A DNA stretch of 64,000 nucleotides from Ascidia mentula (lineage: Eukaryota; Chordata; Ascidiacea; Phlebobranchia; Ascidiidae). Below are positions 14,301-17,300 of this stretch, piece after piece. Location of the stretch: positions 8,306,001 to 8,370,000 of the forward strand of contig OX387201.1 of assembly GCA_947561715.1 (NCBI GenBank), written 5' to 3'. The position numbers and the translations under genes are program-made. How positions within the stretch are numbered: the stretch's first letter is position 1; each line of letters opens with the position of its first letter. The notes under the pieces were generated by a model that saw only the letters and a list, made by a program, of their open reading frames with translations, was not told the origin of the DNA and did not search any database.

Positions 14301-17300
14301 ATTTTTTTGTGTTCGTGTGAGCCCCATGTTACTCCCCTTGATTCCTTGAAGTAATATTGACTTAACTCATAAACCCGTGCATTACACAGGGATTGTGAGA
14401 TGTGCGTTGCTAGAGTTCCCCACTCGTCTGCTTCTTACTGTCAATGGTGCGATAACCAGTGTATTTCATCCGATCAAGAGTGCGCCGCACATAACACCTC
14501 CTGTAGCGGTTGCTATGAAATGGGTAAGCGCGTTCGTTTTAAAATCCACGTTATTCATAGTTTATACCCAGGAAAGTTCGTTTAGAAACTGCATTTATTC
14601 AGTTAATTTGAATTTACTAGGAAAATATGTGCACGACTTCTACAGTTGCTTACATATGTTTTCACTATAGTGTAGTCATTGCAGTCGCATCCATGCAATT
14701 CGTGTTTTTAAGTATTTTTTTATTCTTGGGCAAGAAGCAAAGAAACCTTATTTTGAAACAAGTGGTATAGTGAATTTTTTTTGGGTGAAACTCTCCCTCC
14801 CAGCAAAGCAACGTTTTCTGCATGGCTATTAATGTAGGTTGCCAGAGTTGCGTAGCGACGAGCTGCGTCCAGTGCCTCGCCCAATCACAAAACTGCACGT
14901 GGCGCAATCTTCTTGGCATTACTGGAGAATGGAAATGTGCTTCGACCCGTGAAGGAAGCAGAGGTCTCCCACCTTTGGCCATTCCAATCACCATGACTCG
15001 ATCAGCTCACAGGTGCTGCATGTTTGGATTTACATTTAGCTTACGTGCCACAACCCTTGTTCGAAGCCCCCCCAACCGGCTGCCGCGTATACAATCAATA
15101 GCGATACATCCTTGTTAATCAATACCTGTAGAGATTTTTCCAGAATGAAACAACATGAAAAAGTGTTGGTCTCAATGAAGTGCATTTTAAGCCACTTATT
15201 GTGCAACCCTCTTCTGCATGTATTGAGAAAAACATAAAAACGTCGGTTATTTTTAAAATCCTTTGAACAAATTTCGTTTAAACATTTTAATTACCACCAA
15301 ATGTTTCACTGACAGCTGTCCCGCCAACTGCGGATCCCACACCACATGCGAAAGTTGTTTGACTTCCTCCGGCGGATCCGAAGCGGGATCGGCCTCTTGC
15401 CTCTGGAGCGCCACTTTCCGGACCTGCTTCAGCCCGCTGCAATCCGCATTGCGGTGCTTTGACGGGTCGTGTGGCTTCGTTGTGCAACCGGCGTCTGTCT
15501 GTCCGCTGATTGACTGCGGACGTGTGACGTATTGTCACGAGTGTATTCGGTTACGCGAGTGCGGATGGTTGGGTTTGAACGACGGGAGTGGAAAAGGTCG
15601 ATGCAGGCTCGGCTCACATGAGGTGAAGTCATTTCTCGTATTGAGTTTGGGCGCAGATGTGTTTGTGGGATGCGGTTGACGATTTTTTTGTAACTCTCTA
15701 TATAGTTTTTTTGTTGTCAATATCACGGTCATGTCTCAACGCACAAAGGCAGTTATCGTAAAATTGAACCAACGTTTATAACTAAAAACTTTAGCAATCC
15801 TCTAATCGTTATTTTATGGCAGTTATTGGTTAATTCACGACACAGACGATGATTTACAAACGTGGTGCAATTTTCAGGCGCCAGAAGATACATCCTCAAT
15901 ATCTGGTATGTCACAAGCTGAGTGGTGGTACATGACTTGTCCGGTGGAGGACGAATGTGATAACGGCAACCACGAATGCTCGGCGGCTTCTCCCAACTTC
16001 AATACATGCGTTGATAGGTTGGATGGCTACGAGTGCAAATGCCTGAACGGCTACAAGCGCCCGACGCCCTTGGAAGATTGTCAACCTGTGTGCGAACCAA
16101 GTACGTTTGTTTTATAATTGTTTTCACGCCCGGTTGTATGTTTCCTCCATTCACAAATTTTTCAATTTGACGAAAACTTTGATGATGATAAAAGCATTAA
16201 CACAAATGCCTAAAATTGACAGAAGTTCTGACAATTTATATTGCTTGTTCTGAACTTAAAGTGATATATTAGTGATATTATTCTAGAAACCTTTTGTACG
16301 TTTAGGTTGCGTCCACGGCCGATGCATAAAACCCTACGTATGCCACTGCGATTTTGGATTCACCGACCCGTCATGCTCCACTGCGTGCAACTGCAGCGGC
16401 CTGAGCAACTGCGAACCGAACAACAAGAGCATGTTCGTGATACCCATTCTACAATGTTCTTCAGTCTTTTGTAAACTTATGTTTTTGCAGATGTTTGCGT
16501 TGCGTGAACAACACTCACGGTGCCAATTGTCAACATTGTGACGTGGGATTTGTCGGCGACCCAAGCAGGGAAAGACCCCGCGGGGAAAATCCCTGCATCG
16601 CGTGCGAGGTAAACTGATGAATGCGGCTCATCGTTTTTTTTTCGTTCTAATTGCGTATTTTGATTTCCTTGTACTATATTTGAGTCACAACCCGTGGGTT
16701 AAACCTGCAGCTAAATTAATAATTGAGAATTTTCGCAGACAATTTGCAATGGAAGGTCGAGGGATTGTGTGAGTAATGAAGACAAGGATGGGTCCGAACC
16801 TGTAGCCACGTCGGGACCGAAGAGCTTCGATTCCACCAAGTGTCTCAACTGTTCGGGAAACAGCGTGGGTGATTACTGTGAAATGTGCAAGGACGGATAT
16901 TTCATGGTAAGCTTGTTCAATTACATGGATGCCCATCAACTTGGTTGCACGTAAACCCGTTTTAAATATTTGTCAGAACAGTACGTATCCAATTTTAAGG
17001 TCTAAACTTATAAGCTGCTGCTTTTTCCAAAAGATTTTTTTTTGCAACGACCTTAATTTTAATAAGGCCGTTTGGTCAGCAAAGTCGTCTGATAGTCACA
17101 CCAACTGCACTGATGAGACCTTTTAGGTCGAAACAGTGGCCATCTGTCTGCAGCTTATACACAAATTAATTTTAATAGTTTGTGCAACTATTGATGTAAT
17201 TTTGCAACGCAATCCTGTATTTGCGACACTGGTTAACTGAGGGCGTCGAGGTTATCTAACACCTGTAAGAATTATTCTCACCTTCTCTTCAGCTCAACAA

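Follow-up and report, generated by a model that had tools for sequence, protein, structure and literature searches.

In the 64-kb stretch of DNA analysed here (the window), the forward strand carries an intron of a MEGF8 homologue. The reading frame is continuous across the junction of intron 16907-17292, and the best PDB match of the spliced flanking exons is human MEGF8 (E 2.5e-7). Frames near the intron contain a PSI domain above the Pfam cut-off and EGF-type domains, including an attractin-type domain, below the cut-offs; the gene name rests on the match of the flanking exons and on these nearby domains, rather than on a comparison of the whole gene. Inside the intron, a motif scan identified a complete type I hammerhead ribozyme motif on the forward strand, with a minimal extent of 17105-17153. 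The features of the locus, in window coordinates, are as follows.

16907..17292, forward strand: host intron of the MEGF8 homologue, 386 nt, phase 0, GT..AG (splice sites, continuous frame)
17009..17018, forward strand: host segment TATAAGCTGC, fully complementary to 17150-17159; a prediction has it sequester the 3' strand of stem I
17053..17064, forward strand: target-site duplication, left copy (TTAATTTTAATA), exact 12-bp repeat
17065..17165, forward strand: retrozyme insertion, 101 bp, an extra A followed by unit positions 1-100 (genome matches, edges)
17104..17104, forward strand: rare substitution of A for G, which disrupts the family's sixth stem I pair (G in 77 of 79 copies)
17105-17109 and 17149-17153, forward strand: stem I, 5 bp, CTGCA/TGCAG (sequence, scan)
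17110-17116, forward strand: core CTGATGA (sequence, scan)
17117-17129, forward strand: stem II, GACCT/AGGTC, with a 3-nt TTT loop (sequence, scan)
17130-17133, forward strand: GAAA (sequence, scan)
17133-17147, forward strand: stem III, ACAG/CTGT, 4 bp, with a 7-nt loop (sequence, scan)
17148..17149, forward strand: predicted self-cleavage site C17148/U17149 at a GTC triplet, corresponding to unit position 83 (motif register)
17166..17177, forward strand: target-site duplication, right copy (TTAATTTTAATA), exact 12-bp repeat

Both the sequence and the scan give an invariant core, three helices, a NUH cleavage triplet and an open stem I, as in type I hammerheads. The scan required CTGANGA and GAAA together with stems I, II and III of at least 4, 3 and 2 bp, respectively. 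Applied to both strands of the 64-kb window it returned a single hammerhead, the one at 17105-17153, and applied to both strands of 60 dinucleotide shuffles it returned none. These results agree with the initial annotation, which had described the same elements in the same order with a cut after C17148 and had regarded the motif as the only complete one among the CTGATGA strings of the window; its placement on the sense strand of a MEGF8 intron is likewise borne out by the splice sites, the reading frame and the PDB match of the exons. The covariance-model search that it had proposed speaks against the motif. No match in the window reached the Rfam gathering thresholds, and the best sub-threshold matches were Hammerhead_3 (20.8 bits) in the wrong register and RAGATH-1-hammerhead (20.7 bits) in the right register. 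Also against the motif, the predicted fold of 17091-17165 is no better than that of its shuffles (z -0.45). A genome search with RF00163 gave 0 matches, but the model was also silent in all 14 control genomes, so this zero is no evidence of absence. A loose hammerhead pattern, CTGATGA-N(11-18)-GAAAC-N(6-36)-TCTGCAG, has 1854 matches genome-wide (950+904) and none in the reversed control (0+0). Sequence comparison across the genome therefore confirms that the hammerhead motif is real.

The genome assembly (196 Mb, 79 contigs) was searched with window positions 17000-17260, which gave at least 84 matches, many of them tandem or in inverted pairs. Among the matches listed, 62 of 84 begin at window base 17066, the start of the insertion, and 82 of 84 have 94-99% identity (of the other two, one has 83% and one is the window itself). 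The underlying repeat is a non-coding unit of 284/285 bp that occurs singly or in up to six copies in a row, with tandem units abutting seamlessly and no coding sequence in between. Exact copies of the 55-nt ribozyme with its 3' flank number 333 genome-wide (184+149). The MEGF8 insertion is a 5' truncated copy of this repeat with a 3' edge of the 'short' type described below, and it is identical to a reference unit (L006:1501-1785) at 106 of 109 bases, in an alignment that extends into the target duplication. Given the 12-bp target duplication and the hundreds of near-identical copies, sequence comparison indicates that the MEGF8 motif arrived by retrotransposition of a fragment, and that the hammerhead is part of a mobile insertion rather than a feature of MEGF8. 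The initial annotation had implied a pre-mRNA ribozyme specific to MEGF8, an idea that the same two observations do not support, and had mentioned retrozymes and Penelope-like elements (PLEs) as possible sources. It had also named loss of core bases in relatives with no sign of a mobile source as grounds for dismissing the motif; this does not apply here because a mobile source exists.

An intronic ribozyme maintained by selection and controlling MEGF8 pre-mRNA, in the manner of conserved amniote hammerheads, would fit the complete core, the sense strand and the intronic position of the motif. The target duplication and the copies elsewhere in the genome argue against this explanation, as do a rare change in stem I and a predicted interaction with the host intron, and we regard it as very improbable. 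Stem I of the family has 7 bp (AGCTGCA/TGCAGCT), compared with 5 bp and a mismatch in the MEGF8 copy, which is one of the 2 copies among 79 with A at 17104. When the whole intron is folded, the 3' strand of stem I is 97% paired with host bases 17009-17018, and the probabilities of stem I and stem III are 0 and 0.02, respectively. Energy models, which disregard the tertiary structure and the folding order of hammerheads, prefer a competing CACUG/CAGUG helix to the hammerhead fold by 1.4 kcal/mol (MEGF8 copy, -12.1 for the hammerhead vs -13.5 kcal/mol for the best fold; family, -16.6 vs -18.0). Because of the stem I mismatch and the predicted sequestration by the host intron, efficient cleavage of the MEGF8 pre-mRNA is doubtful, its likelihood being lowered rather than removed by these predictions. 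A cut 242 nt from the intron start need not harm splicing, and the effect of the insertion on MEGF8 is probably small. A literature search for MEGF8 together with hammerheads, with subscription journals and preprints outside its scope, found no paper. For MEGF8 the locus is ordinary, a single insertion of an abundant non-coding element.

In the available text of PMC7229834 (Cervera and de la Pena 2020), metazoan non-LTR retrozymes are described as type I hammerheads in low-GC tandem repeats of 170-400 bp with target duplications. The repeat family has a type I hammerhead in a non-coding, low-GC tandem repeat within this size range (~170-400 bp) and dispersed insertions with target duplications of >4 bp (mode 12 bp), without LTRs. 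Its GC content of 47% lies under the limit of <50% given in the text of that paper and slightly over the <45% given in its Figure 1 legend. Units of 285 bp leave no space for the RT + GIY-YIG open reading frame of an autonomous PLE. By these sequence features the family belongs to the metazoan non-LTR retrozymes, an established kind of element, within which it is a sequence family of its own.

Family copies deviate from the majority base at 0.4-1.0% of positions, depending on the region, and the family is therefore young. Within it, the ribozyme shows no sign of purifying selection (0.44% vs 0.61% per base, p 0.24); an earlier count with lower variation in the ribozyme was superseded, its flanks having taken in insertion edges and its copies possibly having been counted twice. 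Some 100 places with the loose pattern, among the matches listed, represent subfamilies that differ in loops II and III. In stem II, 41 distinct strings typed from these matches keep 186 of 205 pairs, and the loops vary more than the stems, a weak count in that at least 7 strings of other length were omitted and the pattern itself fixes the core and the 3' strand of stem I.

To characterise the insertions, the edges of 60 retrozyme loci (36 merged segments) were read, giving 37 rows that represent 36 insertions, one insertion (C1:3331317) being split over two rows. Two insertions (C52:4599433 and C52:4612984) have common flanks and are apparently a segmental duplicate. Target duplications that are exact and at least 10 bp long are present in 27 of 37 rows, compared with 0.6% of 1332 mismatched flank pairs, and duplications of at least 9 bp are 79% AT compared with 63% in the flanks. 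The layout is head-to-head, with 3' ends outward, in 26 of the 36 insertions and one-sided in the other 10. Across the genome, neighbouring retrozyme matches within 1 kb diverge in 20 cases, converge in one (the complex locus C70:6587608) and run in the same direction in 24.

The outer 3' edges of the head-to-head insertions fall into two classes ~30 bp apart, which we term short (unit 95-112, around ~100) and long (unit 122-145, around ~130). Script-based classification of the 26 head-to-head insertions gave 20 short+long, four long+other, one short+other and one short+short. Reading the junctions by eye moved two insertions to short+long, namely the split C1:3331317 and C71:10096546, the latter misclassed because its alignment overran into the 12-bp duplication. 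The final count by eye is 22 short+long, three long+other, one short+short and no long+long. The second edge of the three long+other insertions is at unit 67, 72 or 83, and both flanks of the sole short+short locus are one sequence in inverted orientation. The short/long combination is thus found in 22 of 23 fully classed pairs (p 3e-6 under independent, equally likely edges). A segment at C67:9117719 (L002/L003) has identical inverted flanks and may be a palindromic duplication or an assembly artefact.

The same pattern is seen at 20 further loci outside the 60, taken from the list of 333 copies at places with no near neighbour in it. Every one of the 22 3' edges in view belongs to one of these classes (two of them lie at the boundary, 112), and both loci at which both edges are visible are short+long. 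Of the 10 among these 20 loci with both ends in view, seven have duplications of 11-14 bp and three of only 8 bp. In MEGF8 and two other insertions the 5' end lies near unit 1, but the idea that this end is fixed was rejected because the 5' ends of the 20 further loci are variable.

The spread of plain satellite DNA through unequal crossing-over or gene conversion would produce tandem 284/285-bp arrays that are uniform within an array, as observed. It does not account for dispersed short inserts, 5' truncation or the head-to-head layout, the target duplications refute it for the dispersed copies, and conversion could add uniformity but leaves the fixed edges unexplained. We consider this explanation extremely improbable.

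The genome also contains 121 GIY-YIG matches, some of them in open frames of 800-890 codons. RT and GIY-YIG domains both pass the Pfam cut-off in one locus (L074) and both are found in another (L090), where the RT match of 19.3 bits is below the cut-off. Among neighbouring GIY-YIG matches no more than 6 kb apart, 17 pairs are divergent (3' ends outward), none is convergent and six run in the same direction. In one PLE family, both outer edges could be read in six insertions, two of which have common flanks, leaving five that are independent. All six have a short edge and an edge longer by ~36-38 bp, and all six have 12-bp duplications, compared with at most 7 bp in 28 mismatched flank pairs. 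Four more loci of that family have one outer edge, which is short in two and long in two. The layout of the retrozyme insertions, with 3' ends outward and 12-bp duplications, is therefore common to PLEs of the same genome, and the retrozyme edges carry a mark of the PLE type, a tail of ~30 bp on one end. These edges suggest that the retrozyme insertion was very probably moved by PLE-type machinery.

LINE insertions can also show target duplications, 5' truncations and inversions, and mobilisation of the retrozyme by a LINE, with ordinary twin priming producing 5' inversions, would explain these features. In LINE twin priming, the internal point at which the inverted segment begins is variable. 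The outer ends of the retrozyme insertions are instead two fixed 3' sites, of which one is short and the other long, as in the PLEs of the same genome, and this makes a LINE quite unlikely as the source of the insertions. Alternatively, an autonomous PLE could have this repeat as its pseudo-LTR, in which case the MEGF8 fragment would be a piece of a solo pseudo-LTR. The architecture is the same as that of PLEs, and hammerheads or unit-related fragments are found near PLE sequences (L090, L062, L069 and L080). However, the tandem units are seamless with no coding sequence between them, only 4 of 30 GIY-YIG loci (which span only ~1.5 kb on each side) have any stretch in common with the retrozyme unit, and the 3' sequence of the edge-read PLE family is unrelated to it. 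A pseudo-LTR origin is accordingly unlikely, although somewhat less so than mobilisation by a LINE. The explanations considered here are partly compatible with one another and not all are exclusive. We favour a retrozyme moved by PLE-type machinery. Against this, our search found no PLE family with a 3' end that matches the retrozyme edge sequence.

Several other sequences near PLEs contain hammerhead-like stretches. Two loci (L062 and L065, reverse strand) have, 3' of the GIY-YIG frame, a CTGATGA, a GAAAC and a stem III that is palindromic and very short; this stretch, seen by eye and unlisted by the scan, resembles the minimal hammerheads described for PLEs. Other retrozyme subfamilies are represented near PLEs by related hammerheads or unit fragments at L090:2965-3025 (reverse strand), L062, L069:944-994 (reverse strand) and L080:499-729, and the core is changed in the hammerhead-related sequences of L062 and L069. 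The L090 hammerhead was considered as a part of its PLE but could just as well have come from an independent insertion of a different retrozyme subfamily, and it was not used as evidence. A decayed retrozyme of the MEGF8 type with changed stem II bases (L091, reverse strand, ~3520-3446) is located near the PLE at C71:14025588. A head-to-head cluster at C67:6134028-6146916 contains five GIY-YIG matches with a spacing of ~2870 bp within its halves and long open frames. The retrozyme array of L006 (1-3109) apparently lies, as judged by eye, between repeated short cysteine-rich coding-like stretches and is perhaps in the introns of a repeated gene.

The units within single insertions hold information about the template that was copied. 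We counted minor alleles in multi-unit insertions, using substitutions only, trimming 12 bases at match ends and leaving out the palindromic C67:9117719 and the duplicate C52:4599433; a first count was set aside because edges, and gaps of ambiguous placement at unit 250/251, had confounded it. Minor alleles are present in every unit in nine events from seven insertions, and seven of these nine span both orientations. In 38 of the 39 remaining events, the minor allele is in a single unit, and in one it is present in two of three units. Shuffles gave a mean of 0.56 and a maximum of 4 uniform-allele cases, compared with the nine observed. Because minor alleles are uniform across units, one unit seems to have seeded each insertion, including both of its halves, which is what a monomeric circle would do. 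This uniformity could also stem from gene conversion or from uncut multimeric transcripts of arrays that are young and uniform.

The usual edges are ~17 and ~47 nt beyond the cleavage site at unit 83. A cleaved linear monomer is therefore not the usual template, and a circle or an uncut multimer can be. One insertion (C52:12916910, L023) has a right edge exactly at unit 83 with an extra C, followed by the 12-bp duplication; this edge is possibly a trace of ribozyme cutting in vivo, as run-off from a cleaved RNA. Considering the uniformity and the edges together, the retrozyme cycle probably includes a circular step.

These observations are consistent with a cycle in which tandem retrozyme copies would be transcribed, the hammerhead would release monomers by cutting the transcript after unit position 83, and a host ligase would close the monomers into circles. 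A PLE protein with RT and GIY-YIG domains would nick both strands of AT-rich DNA at positions ~12 bp from each other. Copying would be primed from each of the two DNA ends, would begin within the RNA at unit ~100 or ~130, ~30 nt apart, and would proceed around the circle for up to several units. Head-to-head joining of the two cDNAs would follow. In MEGF8, a single short cDNA, from unit 100 back to 1, would have been fixed. We think it a reasonably good bet that metazoan retrozymes are moved by PLEs in this way, the RNA circle being copied from either end of a staggered break, with each start site used once per insertion, at opposite DNA ends.

Parts of this cycle have precedents in the published descriptions of PLEs, as far as the text available to us extends. 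A PLE begins reverse transcription at two adjacent internal sites (PMC11167929), and it is because of these that a 'tail' of 30-40 bp unique to PLEs is formed. In the same study, uncut RNA was the main substrate in vitro, hammerhead mutants could still insert, and the start site was alike on both DNA strands; strict pairing of short and long was not reproduced there. PMC3846280 describes PLE insertions in which the pseudo-LTRs are inverted, one end carries a tail of 31 bp and the duplications are mostly 8-10 bp, together with the movement of a foreign gene in trans by a PLE. Mobilisation of animal retrozymes by PLEs is only proposed in the available parts of PMC7229834, PMC7761336 and PMC11722881, on the basis mainly of common hammerheads, tandem layout and co-occurrence (PMC7229834 and PMC7761336). 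A tail signature for retrozymes is unreported in the available parts of PMC7229834, PMC7761336, PMC11722881, PMC8490949 and PMC11167929, subscription journals and preprints being outside the scope of the search. The retrozyme junctions analysed here bear the mark described as unique to PLEs, beside PLEs of the same genome with the same mark, so that the proposal can now be tested at exact start sites. The mode of PLE insertion, itself poorly known, is further constrained by the pairing of short with long edges. If correct, our interpretation would settle what mobilises animal retrozymes and would add a rule of one short and one long edge, which is unreported in the available text of PMC11167929.

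Conserved amniote hammerheads sit in introns, as does the MEGF8 motif. They have the sense-strand orientation in common with it and differ in being few conserved copies, whereas the MEGF8 motif is a mobile insertion from a family of hundreds (the amniote hammerheads are mentioned in PMC7229834). With metazoan non-LTR retrozymes, as described in the available parts of the same paper, the family shares the hammerhead type, the range from monomers to multimers, target duplications of >4 bp and co-existing PLEs. It differs from them in that it is a sequence family of its own and in that edges, duplications and unit uniformity are resolved here, from DNA evidence only. Compared with PLEs, as far as these are covered in the accessible text of PMC11167929 and PMC3846280, the retrozyme has the same inverted layout with 3' ends outward, an extension on one end (30-40 bp in PLEs), short duplications in AT-rich DNA and a hammerhead upstream of the start sites. 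Unlike PLEs, it encodes no protein, and its stem III has 4 bp, in contrast to the minimal hammerheads of PLEs (PMC7761336, available text).
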